Source: a virus. Taken from it: DNA of 39,520 bases. Positions 1 through 39,520 of the stretch are shown one piece after another. Every line of letters begins with the position of its first letter. Within the stretch, counting starts at the first letter, position 1. The stretch covers positions 1-39,520 of the IMG/VR virus record IMGVR_UViG_3300044825_000819, one strand, 5' to 3'. Position numbers and translations under genes: made by a program. The notes under the pieces were generated by a model. That model was not told the origin of the DNA. It did no database searches and saw nothing but the letters and a program-made list of their open reading frames with translations.

Positions 1-63
1 GTCCGGCAACTGCGGTGCCTGCGGGGCCATGACGTTGCCGATAATGCTGGGGTCGATGGGCAT
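1..63 (-). CDS. 5' fragment of the ejection-protein gene seen whole at 38153-39337
   Basis: Read on the minus strand, the ATG at 63-61 begins MPIDPSIIGNVMAPQ and runs off the left edge. It is the start of the 394-residue gene at 38153-39337, present because the window ends overlap. A GGAG ribosome-binding site overlaps the TAG stop of the fragment's neighbour in the joined genome. It is not a second gene. Confidence 0.9.
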   Translation of the reverse strand, partial: MPIDPSIIGNVMAPQAPQLPD

Positions 64-246
64 CCGTTATCTCCTAGATGATCGGCATGTCGTAGCCAGC
101 AGGCGGCGCGGTGCCCAGGCCAGCCGACGCCGTAGGCGTAATGGCGCGCAGATAGTTGATGTACGGCTGCTGCGCCTGATAGCTCATGTACCCCTGCGCC
201 GCCTGACCGGCCAGATTGCCGATGTTGCCCATCGTGCCGGTGGCGA
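1..246. repeat. Left copy of 246-bp terminal direct repeat
   Basis: The same 246 bases recur at 39275-39520 with five substitutions, at positions 58, 92, 101, 110 and 119 of this copy. The simplest reading is a circular or circularly permuted genome whose assembled ends overlap, giving about 39,274 unique bases. This fits headful packaging of a P22-type phage. All five differences are synonymous third-position changes, so the two ends probably derive from closely related strains rather than sequencing error. Confidence 0.93.
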
Positions 247-3918: not shown

Positions 3919-5341
3919 CAAGGATCAACTCCGCTCCCATGATGGTGACCTTGACCGGGTCGGACCCTGATACCTCGTAGACACGATCACGCAGCTTCTG
4001 CGTCATGCCGAGCCGCCGCCAGAAAACGCGGCGCTGGTACTGGCCGATGGCGCCCAAAGACGACCAATGCTCGCGCGACCAGGTGTGTCCGCCGTCATCC
4101 GACCAGCGCAGCATGGCCTGCGGGTCGCTGCCCTGTCCGGCGTTGATGCCGACGCCGCTTTCGCAATCCAGTTGCAGCGTGTGGTGCGCCGTGCGGCGCA
4201 GCGTGTTGGTGCCTGTGGGTAACGCCCGCCACGACCGGAGCCATTTCTGCGGCGCGGTATCGTCGGCGTAGACATCGAGATCGAAGGCGTAGATGTTGCC
4301 GTTCTCATAATCGCCTACGATGATTTCACTGTTGAAATTCATCTGGCAATTGGAGCGATGGCGGCCGAACTGACCGTTGATGAGGCTGGCCCGCTCATGC
4401 CACGCGCCCGTGGACGTGTCGTAGACCCATGTGGCGCTGGCGGTCGGGAAAGTCAGAACGTAGAACTTGTGGCCTTCCTGCTGGTAGGAATAGGCCACGG
4501 CGTCTGAAATCACGCTGTAGTTCTGAATGGCGAACTCAACCGCATGGGTCGATATACGTTCGCCGCGGTAACCATTGGCGCGGTAGACCACGCCGTTGCC
4601 GCGCGCGTCAGCGCCCAGCCAGAACAGCGTGTTGTCCAGCTTGGCAACCGAATAGACAGCGGCGCAGCCCAATTCGTTGAACGCGCCCTGGATGCGCTGG
4701 AGGGGAAAGTCAGCCGTCCCGGCGTTGTACCAAACCTCAACGGTCCCGGTGCCAAACAGCCAAGCCTCGCGGTGGTCAATGTTTACCGACACAAGCTGGT
4801 CGGGCGCACCTTCGGCGCTGGCAAAGTCAAGCGGGTCAACGCTGGTGCCGTCCAACAGGCTCGTCACCCACACTTTCTGCGAGTTAGGCTCGTTAAAGAC
4901 GAAATAGCCGTCCAGATAACCTACTGTTGAAGCGCCAGGGAAGTCGGGGTCGCCAATCGGCGCAAACGCGCCCGTGGACATGTTGTAGATGTAGCCATTC
5001 GGATTGGCGGCGATGAAGATTTGCGTACCGTTGTCGGCAATCGACACCGGTCCAGTGCCGTCAATCGTGCCCAGAAACGTGGCGTTGTAGGCGGTGTCGA
5101 TCTTGTACAGCCCGTTGCCCGACACAACGTAGCCGTCAGAACCCGTAACCTGTGTAGCCCACAGCCCCCGAATTGGCCCGCTGCCGATGGTGGCCAGCCG
5201 CCGCAGCCCCGGCGCACGGTTAAGGAACGCCGCCTGCTTGCCGCCTTCCGGCACAACCTCGGGGTAGAGGTTAACACAACGGTTGTCCGCTGCGTTGACG
5301 CTGCGGGCAACATATGCACTACCCAAGATAGGCGACTGCAT
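3902..5341 (-). CDS. Packaged DNA stabilization protein, P22 gp10-like neck/tail accessory factor
   Basis: 479 residues, close to the P22 gp10 length of about 470. The N-terminus is diagnostic: GSAYVARSVNAADNRCVNLYPE, then a chain of beta-propeller-like strands (GLYKIDTAYNATFLG, YLDGYFVFNEPNSQKVWVT) and a C-terminal SDDGGHTWS segment. In P22, gp10 joins gp4 below the portal and closes the packaged head. The ATG at 5341 directly abuts the TAA of the gp4-like gene, the same order as in P22. The family call is strong; detailed contacts are inference. Confidence 0.87.
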   Translation of the reverse strand: MQSPILGSAYVARSVNAADNRCVNLYPEVVPEGGKQAAFLNRAPGLRRLATIGSGPIRGLWATQVTGSDGYVVSGNGLYKIDTAYNATFLGTIDGTGPVSIADNGTQIFIAANPNGYIYNMSTGAFAPIGDPDFPGASTVGYLDGYFVFNEPNSQKVWVTSLLDGTSVDPLDFASAEGAPDQLVSVNIDHREAWLFGTGTVEVWYNAGTADFPLQRIQGAFNELGCAAVYSVAKLDNTLFWLGADARGNGVVYRANGYRGERISTHAVEFAIQNYSVISDAVAYSYQQEGHKFYVLTFPTASATWVYDTSTGAWHERASLINGQFGRHRSNCQMNFNSEIIVGDYENGNIYAFDLDVYADDTAPQKWLRSWRALPTGTNTLRRTAHHTLQLDCESGVGINAGQGSDPQAMLRWSDDGGHTWSREHWSSLGAIGQYQRRVFWRRLGMTQKLRDRVYEVSGSDPVKVTIMGAELILDGTAA

Positions 5342-19579: not shown

Positions 19580-19611
19580 ACCCAAAACAAAAACACCGGG
19601 CTTTCGCCCGG
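19580..19611 (-). terminator. Intrinsic terminator of the single-gene unit 19658-20434
   Basis: On the minus strand, CCGGGC-GAAA-GCCCGG forms a 6-bp GC stem with a stable GAAA tetraloop (19596-19611), followed by TGTTTTTGTTTT. This is a classic Rho-independent terminator 47 bases after the stop codon. A second perfect inverted repeat, CTACGGCT-AC-AGCCGTAG, lies just before it at 19621-19638. It insulates the late region from this gene. Confidence 0.85.
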
Positions 19612-19657
19612 CGTTCTAAACTACGGCTACAGCCGTAGCACGTCCAGTTGCGCTATG

Positions 19658-20434
19658 TCAAGCCGCCGCTGCGAATCGCCTGGCCGTCGTGCCGTGCGCG
19701 ATAATCGTGATCGACGCGCGCGCTTTAGCCGACGTGCCACCACACGCACGGCAATCGGCGCACGTCGTGCGCCTGCCTGCCTCATCCGACGCCGGGCAGA
19801 TGACTTCCACGCCGGCCATCACGGGCGCCGACGCGGCGCGAACACGGAACGTGCGCCATCCTGCGGCGCGCGCCTCGAGGGCGTCAGCCTCACTGTCGGC
19901 CGACGCCATGCACAGGCTCGAGAAGGCCGGGAAATCGCGCCATTGATGAGTGTAACCGTTGCGGGCACGGACATGCTGAGTGGCATGCGACCAAACGCGG
20001 AACGGCGCCGCGGCTGGATCTCCATAGCTACCAAGGCGGAACACTGAACCGGCAAACAGCTCAGGCAGGAGAGCCACGTCATAATCGACGTGAGGCATGG
20101 CGTAACGGCCGCGCACATAGGCGCCGTAGACGCTTTCGACGCTGCGGCCGATGTTGACATAACAGGAACCGTCATTCGTCGGCCGGTGCGGGCAATGGCC
20201 ACAGATCGCGAAGTCATACCCGAGCCGCGCGGCATCCAGCGGCCGCATGTCCTGACGAATAATGAAAGTCTGTACCGTTGCGCCGGTTTTCGCATTGTCG
20301 CTGTCGGACACAATGCGATTTGCGATGACGACAATCGGCGCGCCGTCGATCATGCTCGGCCCCTGGTACAGGATGACGCCGCAAAAGGCGCCGCGCTTCA
20401 AGGCCTTGATCATGTCCTGCGTCGTGGTGATCAT
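19658..20434 (-). CDS. Cys-rich conserved phage protein, DUF7227-like
   Basis: 258 residues. Recognisable pattern: GVILYQGPSMIDGAPIVVIA, NAKTGATVQTFIIR, then ICGHCPHRP and SCYVN, FRLGSYGDPAAAPFRVWSHA, and near the C-terminus ICPASDEAG and CADCRACGGT. At least seven Cys in CxxC-type pairs suggest two metal sites. I recall this as a phage family named DUF7227, function unknown; the number is from memory. GAGG lies ten bases before the ATG. It is a one-gene unit with its own promoter and terminator, facing away from the early genes, as a regulator might be. Confidence 0.72.
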   Translation of the reverse strand: MITTTQDMIKALKRGAFCGVILYQGPSMIDGAPIVVIANRIVSDSDNAKTGATVQTFIIRQDMRPLDAARLGYDFAICGHCPHRPTNDGSCYVNIGRSVESVYGAYVRGRYAMPHVDYDVALLPELFAGSVFRLGSYGDPAAAPFRVWSHATQHVRARNGYTHQWRDFPAFSSLCMASADSEADALEARAAGWRTFRVRAASAPVMAGVEVICPASDEAGRRTTCADCRACGGTSAKARASITIIAHGTTARRFAAAA

Positions 20435-20461
20435 GAGATGTTTTCCTCTTTCGTGTTGTTA

Positions 20462-20470
20462 TGTGAATAA
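20462..20470 (-). promoter_or_regulatory. DnaA-box consensus match
   Basis: The minus strand reads TTATTCACA, an exact match to the DnaA box TTATNCACA. It touches the predicted -10 of the leftward promoter. A second, 8-of-9 match lies at 20539-20547. The phage encodes a DnaA domain IV protein at 22782-23168, so host DnaA or the phage protein could bind here. Confidence 0.6.
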
Positions 20471-20498
20471 CTATGCGCTAGGCCGCATCACCTGTCAA
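20470..20498 (-). promoter_or_regulatory. Leftward promoter for the 258-aa gene
   Basis: -35 TTGACA (20498-20493), a 17-base spacer, and -10 CATAGT (20475-20470), or ATAGTT one base further. The -35 is the left arm of the 25-bp palindrome at 20493-20517. Transcription would start about 30 bases before the gene's ATG at 20434. Confidence 0.65.
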
Positions 20499-20517
20499 CA
20501 AAAAATATTTGTTGACA
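20493..20517. promoter_or_regulatory. 25-bp palindromic operator containing both divergent -35 boxes
   Basis: TGTCAACAAA-AAATA-TTTGTTGACA: perfect 10-bp arms with a 5-base AT spacer. Each outer hexamer is the consensus -35 TTGACA of one divergent promoter. A dimeric protein bound here would shut both at once. Confidence 0.8.
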
Positions 20518-20541
20518 CGCACACAAGCACCGGACTATTGT
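20512..20541 (+). promoter_or_regulatory. Rightward early promoter
   Basis: -35 TTGACA (20512-20517), an 18-base spacer, and -10 TATTGT (20536-20541). It drives the plus-strand early block starting at 20573. The -10 overlaps TGTGAATAC (20539-20547), a one-mismatch DnaA box. Confidence 0.7.
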
Positions 20542-20572
20542 GAATACATCGACAAGAGGAAAGGCCACGACA

Positions 20573-20755
20573 ATGCAAAGCTACTACACCGGCGAGAGCT
20601 ACTGGTACAGCTACGGCTATAAGACCCGCGCCGCCGCGGAAATCGCCCTCGAGATTGCATACAATTCCGGCGACGTCATGCCTGGCGAACGCCCGCGCAT
20701 TGAGGCGTATCGCACCAACGACGGTGCGACGCGGTACGGCATAAAGCTCAACTAA
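20573..20755 (+). CDS. Small early protein (60 aa)
   Basis: 60 residues from the ATG at 20573, after AAGAGGAAAGG. A GTG at 20540 would lie in the promoter and is rejected. Tyr-rich start MQSYYTGESYWYSYGYKTRA, then AAEIALEIAYNSGD and a beta-like end (RIEAYRTNDGATRYGIKLN). First gene of the rightward early transcript. Such leading small genes in phages often alter host functions, but nothing here shows which. Confidence 0.65.
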   Translation: MQSYYTGESYWYSYGYKTRAAAEIALEIAYNSGDVMPGERPRIEAYRTNDGATRYGIKLN

Positions 20756-20791
20756 CAACCGTCTAACAACCGTCTAACAACCGTCTAACAA
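20752..20791. repeat. 11-bp tandem repeat, 3.6 copies
   Basis: CTAACAACCGT occurs three times exactly (20752-20784), then CTAACAA. The first copy contains the TAA stop of the 60-residue gene and the last runs into the ribosome-binding site of the next. The unit is one helical turn long, so bound proteins would line up on one DNA face. It could also tune the mRNA leader. Confidence 0.85.
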
Positions 20792-20804
20792 GAGGAAAAC
20801 GACA

Positions 20805-21056
20805 ATGGCCTATAACGGATGGACTAACCGCGAAACTTGGCTTGTGAACATATGGTTCGGCGATTGTTTCGACATGATGCAAGATGACGGCGTACAGATA
20901 ACAGCCGATTTCATACGCTTGGAAGTGGAAACTTACATCAAGGAAAACCTCGGGGCGCCGCGTCACGGGTTTATCATGGACATGATGGACCTGGGCGCAA
21001 TCAACTATGACGAACTCGCCCGCCACTATGCGCCGGAGACGGCCGATGCTGAATGA
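20805..21056 (+). CDS. Conserved small phage protein (83 aa)
   Basis: 83 residues: YNGWTNRETWLVNIWFGDCF, then ITADFIRLEVETYI and a Asp/Met-rich MDMMDLGAINYDELARHYAP. The opening NGWTNRETWLVNLW pattern is a well-known small phage protein (I recall the label DUF7249, unverified), of unknown function. AAGAGGAAAACGAC gives a strong ribosome-binding site. Confidence 0.75.
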   Translation: MAYNGWTNRETWLVNIWFGDCFDMMQDDGVQITADFIRLEVETYIKENLGAPRHGFIMDMMDLGAINYDELARHYAPETADAE

Positions 21057-21801: not shown

Positions 21802-21831
21802 TTGACGGGCGGCCAATGCCGCCCGTACACT
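21802..21831 (+). promoter_or_regulatory. Possible internal promoter overlapped by a 9-bp hairpin
   Basis: TTGACG (21802-21807), an 18-base spacer and TACACT (21826-21831) resemble a weak promoter. The spacer is nearly all a perfect inverted repeat, ACGGGCGGC-CAAT-GCCGCCCGT (21805-21826). As RNA it would be a strong hairpin after the clamp gene, but no T-tract follows. It could be a promoter with an operator, or a transcript-end or pause element. Confidence 0.45.
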
Positions 21832-22582: not shown

Positions 22583-22794
22583 CGTCGGACCCGGTCTACT
22601 GGGCGGCCAATGTCGCACCGCTTGATGACGCAACGCTGTTGCGCTTCCTCGACGCTGTAGAGGCCCGCCGCGACAAGTACCAGGTGGCCTTGACGGCCGC
22701 CTTGAAGGAGGCGCAACGCCGCAATCTGATAGAAAAAGGCCCGACGTCGCCGCCGGGCCAGTCGATCGAAGGGAGGAAAACATGCGGACCATAG
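22579..22794 (+). CDS. Small helical protein (71 aa)
   Basis: 71 residues: DPVYWAANVAPLDDATLLRF, then DAVEARRDKYQVALTAALKE and a basic, Pro-containing tail. ATG overlaps the preceding TGA. Its 3' end overlaps the DnaA-like gene's start by 13 bases, and the latter's ribosome-binding site (GGGAGG) lies within it. Unknown function. Confidence 0.58.
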   Translation: MTSDPVYWAANVAPLDDATLLRFLDAVEARRDKYQVALTAALKEAQRRNLIEKGPTSPPGQSIEGRKTCGP

Positions 22795-23168
22795 TCCGAA
22801 ATAGCGGCGACGTAAAGTCCGCCGTCGAAAAGCTGTGGGAGGAACGCTCCGCCTTGGTAGCGGAAAACATCCGCCGGTATCCAACCATTGCTATACTTGG
22901 CGCAATCGCTGCCGCGCATCAAACGACAATTGAGGATTTACGCTCGCGCGAGCGCACCATGCCGCTCTGCATGGCCCGTCACCATGCCGTGTGGGAGATG
23001 AGGCGCCGCCGCATAGACTTAGGGTTTCAGCAAATTGCCGCGGAACTCGACCGTTCAGACCATGCGACGGCCATGCACTCCTGGAACGTATTCAAACGCA
23101 AGGTGCGTGAAGGCCAGTTCGTTCGAGAGCGGACCATAGTCGCCAAACTATTGGGCGACGATGTATGA
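22782..23168 (+). CDS. Stand-alone DnaA domain IV-like DNA-binding protein
   Basis: 128 residues. The region from about residue 43 to 105 aligns by eye with the DNA-binding domain IV of DnaA: IAAAHQTTIEDLRSRERT, then MARHHAVWEMRRRR, FQQIAAELDRSDHATAMHSW. DHATAMH corresponds to the DnaA signature DHTTVLH, with the first Thr replaced by Ala. No AAA+ ATPase domain is present. GGGAGG lies before the ATG. It may bind DnaA boxes such as those at 20462 and 20539, regulating early transcription or recruiting host replication; this is inference. Confidence 0.75.
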   Translation: MRTIVRNSGDVKSAVEKLWEERSALVAENIRRYPTIAILGAIAAAHQTTIEDLRSRERTMPLCMARHHAVWEMRRRRIDLGFQQIAAELDRSDHATAMHSWNVFKRKVREGQFVRERTIVAKLLGDDV

Positions 23169-29221: not shown

Positions 29222-30349
29222 TTAGACTAGCTTACCAAGGGCGGAAGCAAGATGCTTACCGACCTGCAACGACGCCGGGCGCGGATCATCCGCGGGTGCC
29301 AGCGTGTCACCCGATGAGACGGCGGTGATGAGCCCCTCCGGCATGGCGAGCTTGTGCTTCTTCAGCAGTTTCTCGACCTGCGCCGGGCTCTTCAACTCCG
29401 TCAATTCATGCAGCGCAAAAGCGCCAAGGTTCAATAATGCGCCTGTTGCGGCGTATTCGTCAACCCACTGGCGGGTGGCCCGCTTCGGCACCAGCTTCCA
29501 GCCCGGCACCTCGACGCCCGCGGCCAGCAGTTCCGCCGCCATGTCCTTGGCGTCCTTGATCCAACCCTCCAGCAACTCGATGCTCGCCAGCGCCTCGGTC
29601 AGCCGGTCCACGTTGACCGCCTTGATGTTCTCGCGCTTGGCGCGGGCCACCACGCCGTTGACCAGCGGGCAGATCGACTTGGCGGCGCACCAGCGGCAAT
29701 GGTCGCCGGCCGACAGAGGCGCGTCCGGCTGCTGCGCGGCGCGCACCGCGAGGATCAGTTCGGCCTCGAAGCGGCGCACCCGGTCGAGCGAGGTCACCCA
29801 ACGCTTCACCTGCGGCGGCTGGACGATGATGACCTCAATGCTCTCGACGCCTTCAAAGGCCCAGCGGGTGGCCGGGGTGCGAAGCGCGGCAGCGGTGTAG
29901 AAGAGTGCCTGCAGGTTCTCTTCCGCCTCGACCGCCACACCGTCACCAAACTTCCAATCCAGCAGAATGCCGCGATTGCCGATGCGGCCCACAAGATCGG
30001 CGGAACCAAAAACCCCAGGGAGAGCATCGCCAAAACCAACAACCTGCTCGACCGCATACTCCAGCTTTCCCTCGGGGTCGATTTCATCCAGCGCCGCCAG
30101 CGCGGGCAGCAGTTTGCGCTCCAGCCGATCCTCGGTCAACTCGACGCCATTGTAGAACGTGCCGAGAAAGTCTTCCGGCTTCTTGCCCGTCTCAAGGATG
30201 GCGGCGATGGTGTTGTGCAGCAGCGTGCCTTCGTCGGCGTAGCTGCTGGACGGCTTCGGCGGCACCTGCTGGACGAGCGCGACACTGCCGGGGCAGTTGA
30301 TGACGCGCTTCGCCGTCGAGCCGCCGACGATGTTAGAATGTTGAGCCAA
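29222..30349 (-). CDS. Cas4/RecB-like PD-(D/E)XK nuclease, DUF2800-like
   Basis: 375 residues from a TTG at 30349, seven bases after GGAG; no other in-frame start lies near. Motifs: SNIVGGSTAKRVINCPGSV at the start, FGSADLVG near residue 115, LLDWKFGDG near 130 (the D...DxK nuclease core), and HCRWCAAKSICP near 223. With the N-terminal Cys of NCPGS, four Cys can bind a 4Fe-4S cluster, as in Cas4 and AddB. It probably acts in recombination, end processing or host DNA degradation. First gene of the replication operon. Confidence 0.8.
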   Translation of the reverse strand: MAQHSNIVGGSTAKRVINCPGSVALVQQVPPKPSSSYADEGTLLHNTIAAILETGKKPEDFLGTFYNGVELTEDRLERKLLPALAALDEIDPEGKLEYAVEQVVGFGDALPGVFGSADLVGRIGNRGILLDWKFGDGVAVEAEENLQALFYTAAALRTPATRWAFEGVESIEVIIVQPPQVKRWVTSLDRVRRFEAELILAVRAAQQPDAPLSAGDHCRWCAAKSICPLVNGVVARAKRENIKAVNVDRLTEALASIELLEGWIKDAKDMAAELLAAGVEVPGWKLVPKRATRQWVDEYAATGALLNLGAFALHELTELKSPAQVEKLLKKHKLAMPEGLITAVSSGDTLAPADDPRPASLQVGKHLASALGKLV

Positions 30350-30374
30350 GTGAAGTCTCCGTTCGTGTTGCCTG

Positions 30375-30425
30375 CGGTTCTGTTACAAATTTCTTGTTGA
30401 CCTGTCAAGCGGTGTTTGTTAGGTG
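30375..30425. promoter_or_regulatory. Second divergent promoter region
   Basis: Rightward: TTGACC (30397-30402), 17-base spacer, weak -10 near 30420 (TAGGTG). Leftward: TTGACA (30408-30403), 17-base spacer, TAACAG near 30380. The two -35 boxes form TTGAC-CT-GTCAA, an inverted repeat. It separates the replication operon from the rightward methyltransferase/helicase block. The weak -10 boxes suggest an activator or an overestimate. Confidence 0.5.
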
Positions 30426-38152: not shown

Positions 38153-39337
38153 TTACCAATTTGACGATGTTGTGCCTTCAGGCAACTCTTCTTCGCTGTC
38201 GCCGGTTTCGACGGGCAGCGCTTCAGATGGCTCGTAGAATTGCGTGTCGCCCCACTGCTGGTCATACGCTTGCGTCGCGCGCGCTTGAATGTTTCTTAAC
38301 CGCTGCGCAACGTTTTGCAACAGTTCGCGCGCGCGTTTTTCACCTACGTAAGGCGTAACAGCGGCGATCTGTTTTTCAAGCAGCGGCCATTCGCGTTCCG
38401 TAATCGCGCCAATAGAACCGCCCGACCGCATCAACTCTAAACCGGCCTGCGTTATATCAGCTTTGAGGCTTTCAATTGTATTCTTAACATCTTGCGCCTG
38501 TTCAACAGGCATATACTGCCCCGCATACGCAGCGTAATATCCGCCAAAATTGTACTCAAACCCATCCTTGTTTTCATCCGCCAAAACGTAGTCAATTTTT
38601 GCAAGGCTTTCTGCCACGCGATCTTGAACGGCCGTTTTAGCTTTATAGTCTTCGGTGTGTTTAGCTGCGCTTTCCCGGTACAATTTTGTGCCAGGAACAA
38701 CATCGTAGCGCTGTTTTTCTGGGTTCCAAACCTCACCTTTTTGCGCTTCAGTAGGCCCAATTTCGCCGCGGGCTTTTGCTTCTTTTTCGGCTTGTTCGGC
38801 GGCAAATTTTTCGCGGTCAAGCGTAATCTGCGCTTCCTGATACGGCGTCATCGCCGGCGGTTTACCTGCCTGCTCGGTATCAAACGCAAGACGCCCACGC
38901 GATACGTCAAGCTGGCCCAACTGAATTTGCGCAGTCTGCGCCCGCTGAATAGCGCCAAGCGCCTCTTGGCCCATGGGGCTAGACGACAACGAACCGATCA
39001 GCGCCGCCTGAACTTCCTGCGGTGACTTTCCAGCCAAAGCATCCACATACGGGCGCAGGCTCTCCTGCATTTCCGGCGGGACAAGATCAAGCGCACCGGC
39101 AATATCGCCGGTCTGAATGCCATAGGTGTAAGCCGGAAGCAGCGCCTTGAGCGTCGCGGCCTCCTGTGCTTGCGCCGCCTCCTGCTGCGCCAGCTTGGCT
39201 TCCTGCTGCCGCGCGGTTTCGATCTTAAAGATGTTCTCCGCCCCCCGCGTCTGCGTCTCAAGCATAGCGTTGACGTCCGGCAACTGCGGTGCCTGCGGGG
39301 CCATGACGTTGCCGATAATGCTGGGGTCGATAGGCAT
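38153..39337 (-). CDS. DNA-ejection / internal virion protein (394 aa)
   Basis: 394 residues. Starts MPIDPSIIGNVMAPQAPQLP, then a Gln/Ala/Glu coiled coil (about residues 35-65; ETARQQEAKLAQQEAAQAQ), a helical middle (MQESLRPYVDALAGKSPQEV), and a Glu-rich tail. The composition and place (between a 261- and a 639-residue companion) fit a P22 gp20-like ejection protein. A GGAG ribosome-binding site overlaps the TAG stop of the 261-residue gene. Its first 63 bases repeat at the left window edge. Confidence 0.66.
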   Translation of the reverse strand: MPIDPSIIGNVMAPQAPQLPDVNAMLETQTRGAENIFKIETARQQEAKLAQQEAAQAQEAATLKALLPAYTYGIQTGDIAGALDLVPPEMQESLRPYVDALAGKSPQEVQAALIGSLSSSPMGQEALGAIQRAQTAQIQLGQLDVSRGRLAFDTEQAGKPPAMTPYQEAQITLDREKFAAEQAEKEAKARGEIGPTEAQKGEVWNPEKQRYDVVPGTKLYRESAAKHTEDYKAKTAVQDRVAESLAKIDYVLADENKDGFEYNFGGYYAAYAGQYMPVEQAQDVKNTIESLKADITQAGLELMRSGGSIGAITEREWPLLEKQIAAVTPYVGEKRARELLQNVAQRLRNIQARATQAYDQQWGDTQFYEPSEALPVETGDSEEELPEGTTSSNW

Positions 39338-39520
39338 CCGTTATCTCCTAGATGATCGGCATGTCATAGCCAGCCGGCGGCGCAGTGCCCAGCCCAGCCG
39401 ACGCCGTAGGCGTAATGGCGCGCAGATAGTTGATGTACGGCTGCTGCGCCTGATAGCTCATGTACCCCTGCGCCGCCTGACCGGCCAGATTGCCGATGTT
39501 GCCCATCGTGCCGGTGGCGA
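39275..39520. repeat. Right copy of the 246-bp terminal direct repeat
   Basis: Equivalent to positions 1-246 (offset 39274), with five synonymous differences at 39332, 39366, 39375, 39384 and 39393. Together the copies show circular or terminally redundant ends. Confidence 0.93.
39348..39520 (-). CDS. 3' fragment of the ejection gene seen whole at 74-859
   Basis: The last 57 codons, including the stop at 39350-39348, of the 261-residue protein, running off the right edge. The protein sequence is identical to the left copy. It is present only because the window ends overlap. Confidence 0.9.
   Translation of the reverse strand, partial: ATGTMGNIGNLAGQAAQGYMSYQAQQPYINYLRAITPTASAGLGTAPPAGYDMPII

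Follow-up and report, generated by a model that had tools for sequence, protein, structure and literature searches.

DnaA-like domains control gene transfer agent promoters (PMC9638019; PMC11150451), the dnaA gene is repressed by its own product via boxes in the promoter (PMC8203912), and in lambda, DnaA boxes have been described downstream of a promoter (PMC3985674). In the open-licence literature, no report was found of DnaA boxes in phage early promoters that are read by a phage DnaA domain. For the phages considered here, a conserved divergent promoter layout, an enrichment of DnaA-type boxes at early promoters and the co-occurrence of these boxes with a DnaA domain IV protein encoded by the phages themselves were observed.

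The window and its phage family

The window, i.e., the whole stretch of DNA that was analysed, is IMG/VR virus record IMGVR_UViG_3300044825_000819 with a length of 39,520 nt (39.5 kb). It belongs to a family of uncharacterised podovirus-like phages that is almost exclusively known from metagenomes. Relatives were gathered with three protein queries (Cys-rich, DnaA_C and clamp-like) and with the pattern TGTCAAC-N11-GTTGACA alone, and all four led to the same phage family. In all family relatives found, the divergent promoter is placed between the leftward terminase genes and the rightward early block.

Judged by the terminase, the nearest named phages are ctNMl277 (MW202483, 79% identity) and DSL-LC05 (OR003940, 68% identity). 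The DNA likeness of the locus to named phages consists of patches in two records, and no DnaA_C relative was detected in named phages by tblastn. Similar to the window, ctNMl277 also encodes a DnaA helix-turn-helix protein; the window palindrome is absent from the corresponding junction of ctNMl277 and DSL-LC05, as far as the stretch read is concerned. The two ends of the window (1-246 and 39275-39520) repeat each other over 246 bases with 98.0% identity, as would be seen in a genome that is circular or terminally redundant and whose assembly combined slightly differing strains.

The divergent promoter and its palindrome

At the late/early boundary, two outward-facing sigma70-type promoters adjoin each other with their -35 boxes:

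20493..20517, no strand: 25-bp dyad TGTCAACAAA-AAATA-TTTGTTGACA, formed by two back-to-back -35 boxes with hexamers 13 bp apart and a common AT-rich core
20512..20541, + strand: rightward early promoter, TTGACA (20512-20517), 18 bp, TATTGT (20536-20541), kept in relatives
20470..20498, - strand: leftward promoter, TTGACA (20498-20493), 17 bp, CATAGT (20475-20470), kept in relatives

Both promoters score 10/12 for their -35/-10 pairs, and both TTGACA boxes are perfect and lie inside the palindrome. An earlier note, made from the sequence of the window, had described such a divergent promoter with both TTGACA boxes in one palindrome. Its coordinates for the palindrome and for two DnaA box sites were all exact on recheck, and the arrangement was confirmed and found to be conserved across the family: the 13-bp spacing between the hexamers and the 25-bp length of the dyad are shared by all 16 distinct family members compared (16/16). 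L165/L168 deviate from this spacing with 10 bp, and the dyad has been lost, with retention of the promoters, from L004, L007, and the L146-L172 group. Thus, the divergent promoter layout is kept at this boundary while the genes on either side change.

The palindrome is the sole perfect one in the window with arms of at least 10 and a loop of at most 10 bases. Since approximately 0.8 palindromes of such size are expected per window (first-order Markov simulation) and 6 out of 10 arm positions are the two -35 hexamers themselves, the palindrome alone argues only weakly for an operator, and its interpretation as a genome-wide surprise was rejected on account of the expected number. Perfect 10-bp arms occur in this window alone, with 7-9 bp in the relatives.

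DnaA-type boxes at the start sites

Two DnaA-like sites flank the palindrome:

20462..20470, - strand: left DnaA-type box, outward TTATTCACA (plus-strand letters TGTGAATAA), straight after the leftward -10
20539..20547, - strand: right DnaA-like match GTATTCACA (plus-strand TGTGAATAC), one mismatch, inward, overlapping the rightward -10

The left box is the sole exact match to TTATNCACA in the 39.5 kb (minus strand), and its equivalent reads TTGTTCACA in L002, L003, L170 (=L005), and L007. A single exact box anywhere in the window is unsurprising; the surprising part is its position at the start site and the recurrence there in relatives. The right site is identical in the close relatives L002, L003, and L005, and is probably not a family element. 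Both sites are direct repeats, with the left one facing outward and the right one inward, and the idea that the right box mirrors the left one was rejected on the basis of this orientation. The rightward promoter of the window is devoid of an outward-facing box.

For a broader view, promoters with sigma70 criteria, a ribosome-binding site and an ORF were collected, of which the divergent and second early promoters were kept. This set was reduced to 32 promoters below 80% identity, the members of which are still related after clustering. On the outward strand, just after the -10, 5 out of 32 family early promoters carry an exact TTATNCACA and 13 out of 32 a match with at most one mismatch, compared to means of 0.13 and 1.6 and maxima of 2 and 7, respectively, in 2000 dinucleotide shuffles. 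The inward strand of the same 32 promoters is at chance level, with no exact box and one match with at most one mismatch, which is the right site of the window. In a control set of 52 promoter sides, taken from unrelated divergent promoters of higher AT content, no exact box and one match with at most one mismatch were found. The comparison of family and unrelated promoters yields Fisher p values of 0.0065 (exact) and 5.8e-6 (at most one mismatch), which are weakened by a manual choice of the promoters that was made once the pattern was known; the control with unrelated promoters and the inward-strand count do not depend on this choice in the same way.

The family element that follows the -10 reads (N)T(A/G)TNCACA, with CACA beginning 1-4 nt past the -10, varying among members. 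Exact boxes occur at an offset from the -10 of 1 in L163, of 3 in L004 and L167, and of 4 in the window, L138, and L156, and hence the tail of the -10 alone does not account for the match. All but one of the exact boxes in the family records searched are located at an early promoter, and exact TTATCCACA is present in L156 and L167/G019. Poor boxes were observed in L143, L145, L150, and at the right promoter of L026. Early promoters of this family carry an outward DnaA-type box directly downstream of the -10. Swapping the downstream halves between promoters did not separate the hypotheses discussed below, since most of the box falls downstream of the -10. Of the two DnaA boxes proposed in the earlier note, the left one holds, being exact and of a type enriched on the outward strand in the family; the right one is not supported, given its wrong orientation and an occurrence at chance level (1/32).

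The phage DnaA domain IV protein

A candidate reader of the boxes is encoded in the window itself:

22782..23168, + strand: 128-aa DnaA domain IV-like protein (Pfam PF08299), whose gene closes the rightward early block

According to its sequence and predicted fold, this protein is a DnaA DNA-binding domain. It matches Bac_DnaA_C (PF08299) with an E value of 1.1e-8 and 35.4 bits (cut-off 31.5), and a profile of its relatives retrieved only DnaA structures from the PDB. The AlphaFold2 model (pLDDT 91.6) consists of one long N-terminal helix followed by domain IV. Foldseek aligned it to the DNA-binding domains of M. tuberculosis and E. coli DnaA, with target-normalised TM scores of 0.83 (3pvp) and 0.79 (1j1v). 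The residues corresponding to the base-contacting R399, D433, H434, T435, and T436 of E. coli DnaA were compared: all relatives retain the equivalents of H434 and T436, the position of D433 is occupied by D or N, and that of T435 by A, S, T or V.

Of the 20 family records searched, 18 encode a DnaA domain IV protein; the remaining two are short fragments (4.5 and 10 kb). In three more distant relatives that lack the DnaA_C protein, no outward box with at most one mismatch was found at any promoter. In the branch comprising L146, L147, L149, L151, L154, L158, L164, and L172, the box of the rightward promoter reads TTATCCCCA and the recognition helix of the DnaA_C protein reads DHTTAHH; this co-variation of box and recognition helix is no more than a hint, as it stems from a single clade.

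The AAA+ ATPase domain III is absent from the 128-aa protein, which for this reason cannot itself sense ATP/ADP or report the replication state. The earlier note had proposed that host DnaA or the phage DnaA-domain protein ties transcription to the replication state. Between these readers, the phage protein stands as the best candidate; the coupling to replication falls away for this protein and could come from host DnaA only.

Cargo slots and further elements

The genes and elements around the promoter are as follows:

19590..19617, - strand: terminator-like site downstream of the left cargo gene
19658..20434, - strand: 258-aa Cys-containing protein (phrog_2554), left cargo gene; other genes occupy this slot in other relatives
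20454..20459, - strand: leader element ACAACA (TCAACA in the family), located ahead of the ribosome-binding site
20549..20554, + strand: leader element TCGACA (family TCAACA) of the rightward transcript
20573..20755, + strand: 60-aa gene (WYSYGY family) that opens the rightward block, left-side in L002/L137
21195..21791, + strand: 198-aa sliding-clamp-like protein, DNA_pol3_beta_2 (Pfam E 6e-9)
21802..21831, + strand: second early promoter TTGACG-18-TACACT, with a perfect inverted repeat as spacer; GTCCACC follows the promoter

The short flanking genes differ between members and swap sides, as seen in the window, L002, L047, L056, L145, L160, and L162. For instance, L145 and L162 carry the 'DNPYLWSSDAWLA' gene to the left of the promoter, and L004 carries it to the right. 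A constant divergent promoter thus serves two cargo slots of early genes of unassigned function, which are exchanged between relatives.

TCAACA next to both start sites was considered as an additional operator half-site and rejected, because it also occurs in promoterless leaders, e.g., in front of the clamp gene. The second early promoter precedes a 103-aa gene, and its GC-rich repeat GGGCGGC-CAAT-GCCGCCC fills the whole spacer and is preserved in L138, L056, L160, L163, L004, and others. As this repeat lacks a T run, it is not an ordinary terminator. In a Caulobacter gene transfer agent promoter, an inverted repeat at the same place binds GafZ (PMC11150451).

Between the 60-aa and 83-aa genes (20755-20805), tandem 15-base repeats of the CCGTCTAACAA type are present in 3-4 copies and terminate in a ribosome-binding leader. 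The other divergent gap (30349-30423) separates a leftward nuclease-like gene from a rightward VRR-NUC gene; it contains interleaved boxes TTGTTGACCTGTCAAG, by which two TTGAC motifs come to face each other, with no clear -10s. In the distant relative L015, direct repeats of TTGAC(A/G) cluster at approximately 3950-4060, together with a TGTCAACA...TTGACA pair.

Interpretation

We presume, with a probability of roughly one half and on the basis of sequence, that this locus is a divergent early promoter with a DnaA-type box at the start site that is repressed by the DnaA domain IV protein of the phage. The box, with a consensus near NT(A/G)TNCACA, would be bound by the protein encoded at 22782-23168, which would be made last from the rightward early operon. 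At the start site, the bound protein may block promoter melting or escape, and the early promoters would be shut down as the protein accumulates. Due to the terminal position of its gene in the rightward early block, repression of the early promoters would represent a simple negative feedback. A box across the start site fits repression better than activation; GafA and GafY activate from other positions. The 128-aa domain could also be an activator like GafA and GafY, or the box could reflect a discriminator or a preference in the initial transcript with no regulator involved. More tentatively, and somewhat short of even odds, it is tempting to speculate that these phages have detached the DnaA DNA-binding domain as a repressor of early genes, with boxes at the start sites of the divergent pair and the second early promoter, and that one interchangeable divergent promoter serves two freely swapped cargo slots.

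The alternative that survives best, albeit unlikely, is a pair of ordinary strong back-to-back sigma70 promoters devoid of a dedicated regulator, in which the palindrome is made up of the -35 boxes and a shared UP element, and CACAT and TCAACA are start-site and leader sequences preferred by the family. It accounts for the identity of 6/10 arm positions with the -35 hexamers, for the shorter perfect arms of 7-9 bp in relatives and for the occurrence of TCAAC in promoterless leaders. A variable-gap scan of viruses returned the 11-base gap (N11) in 3 out of 117 hits, i.e., with no enrichment, and the assumption that the palindrome spacing is generally favoured in viruses was rejected on this ground. 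Among unrelated exact hits of TGTCAAC-N11-GTTGACA, 15 out of 90 are flanked by a -10 on both sides, compared to 0.5% at random positions. Back-to-back promoters of the same geometry therefore arise repeatedly, and the palindrome is explained by promoter function. Its main role presumably lies in providing two -35 elements and a shared UP-like AT core. What regulator-free promoters leave unexplained is the strand-specific match to the box, which holds T at positions 2 and 4 across several -10 offsets and was reached as exact TTATCCACA or TTATNCACA in separate lineages, but is absent at unrelated promoters.

The main alternative reader of the boxes is host DnaA, which would couple early phage transcription to the replication cycle of the host, as near ori-lambda. 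The exact TTATCCACA boxes of L156 and L167/G019 are consistent with this; in most members, however, the boxes are weakened (TTGTTCACA, TTATCCCCA), and these phages possess a DnaA domain of their own. We regard a host reader as improbable.

Slightly more improbable still is a dimeric phage repressor with the palindrome as its operator, which would cover the two -35 boxes and switch the two transcripts jointly. Besides the fixed length of 25 bp, a symmetric conservation past the hexamers would speak for it: palindrome pair 7/19 is complementary in 15 out of 16 members, with one compensatory change in L142 (TGTCAAT...ATTGACA), and pairs 8/18 and 9/17 are complementary in 12/16 and 13/16, respectively. 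On the other hand, the non-palindromic inner arm drifts freely, the promoters persist in L004, L007, and the L146-L172 group after loss of the dyad, and there is no consistent partner. The 81-aa HTH protein, considered as a dimer on the palindrome, is missing from G010 and G015, which bear the palindrome, and occurs in G004, which has lost it; it was rejected as a partner by this distribution. By the same distribution, no cognate phage repressor tracks the palindrome as would be expected of a dyad operator of the lambdoid type. The palindrome had also been taken as a sign of dimer binding in general, which does not follow, as back-to-back TTGACA boxes create it, in unrelated phages as well. 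A dimeric regulator on the palindrome may exist but is not needed, and a dyad operator would come in addition to the promoter function.

A phage replication origin at 20.5 kb, to which the AT-rich sequence, the palindrome, the DnaA boxes, a local GC content down to 36% in a genome of 61% GC and the replication genes nearby would point, is very improbable and was rejected, as the minimum of the cumulative GC skew lies near 30 kb and single outward boxes over separate promoters are found instead of an origin-type cluster.

Significance and comparison with known systems

If repression by the phage DnaA domain IV protein holds true, a stand-alone DnaA DNA-binding domain would act as a regulator in phages, and its target sequence could be predicted. 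GafA and GafY would thereby be linked to phages with a defined regulon, in which the DNA specificity of such domains is testable, and DnaA boxes in phage genomes may report readers encoded by the phage rather than replication control by the host. Moreover, the slot defined by the conserved promoter, with exchangeable cargo to its left and right, is a place where the uncharacterised early genes of the family can be collected.

Bidirectional or back-to-back promoters of bacteria (PMC12825309, PMC10268837) resemble the locus in that symmetric promoter elements give rise to divergent transcription; they consist of pseudo-symmetrical sequences from which one polymerase proceeds in either direction, whereas the window contains two complete promoters that abut at their -35 sides. 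Within its replication control region (pO/ori-lambda), phage lambda also has DnaA boxes downstream of a promoter (PMC3985674, PMC8203912), with the difference that lambda uses host DnaA, while the family of the window has its own DnaA-type domain and the box at several early promoters. Autoregulation of dnaA likewise involves TTATCCACA-type boxes in the promoter region (PMC8203912), but the phage protein comprises the DNA-binding domain only, with no ATPase, and its putative targets are phage early promoters.

The GafA/GafY system shares with the phage family a DNA-binding domain similar to DnaA domain IV that acts as a transcription regulator in a phage-derived element (PMC9638019, PMC11150451), and in Hyphomicrobiales a separate small DnaA-like protein is present. 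Among the small early genes of the window, no sigma-like partner was found by Pfam and PHROGs. GafA and GafY, which have sigma-like partner domains, are activators that bind either around the -35 or at a large distance upstream, whereas in the phage family the putative site is located at the start site.
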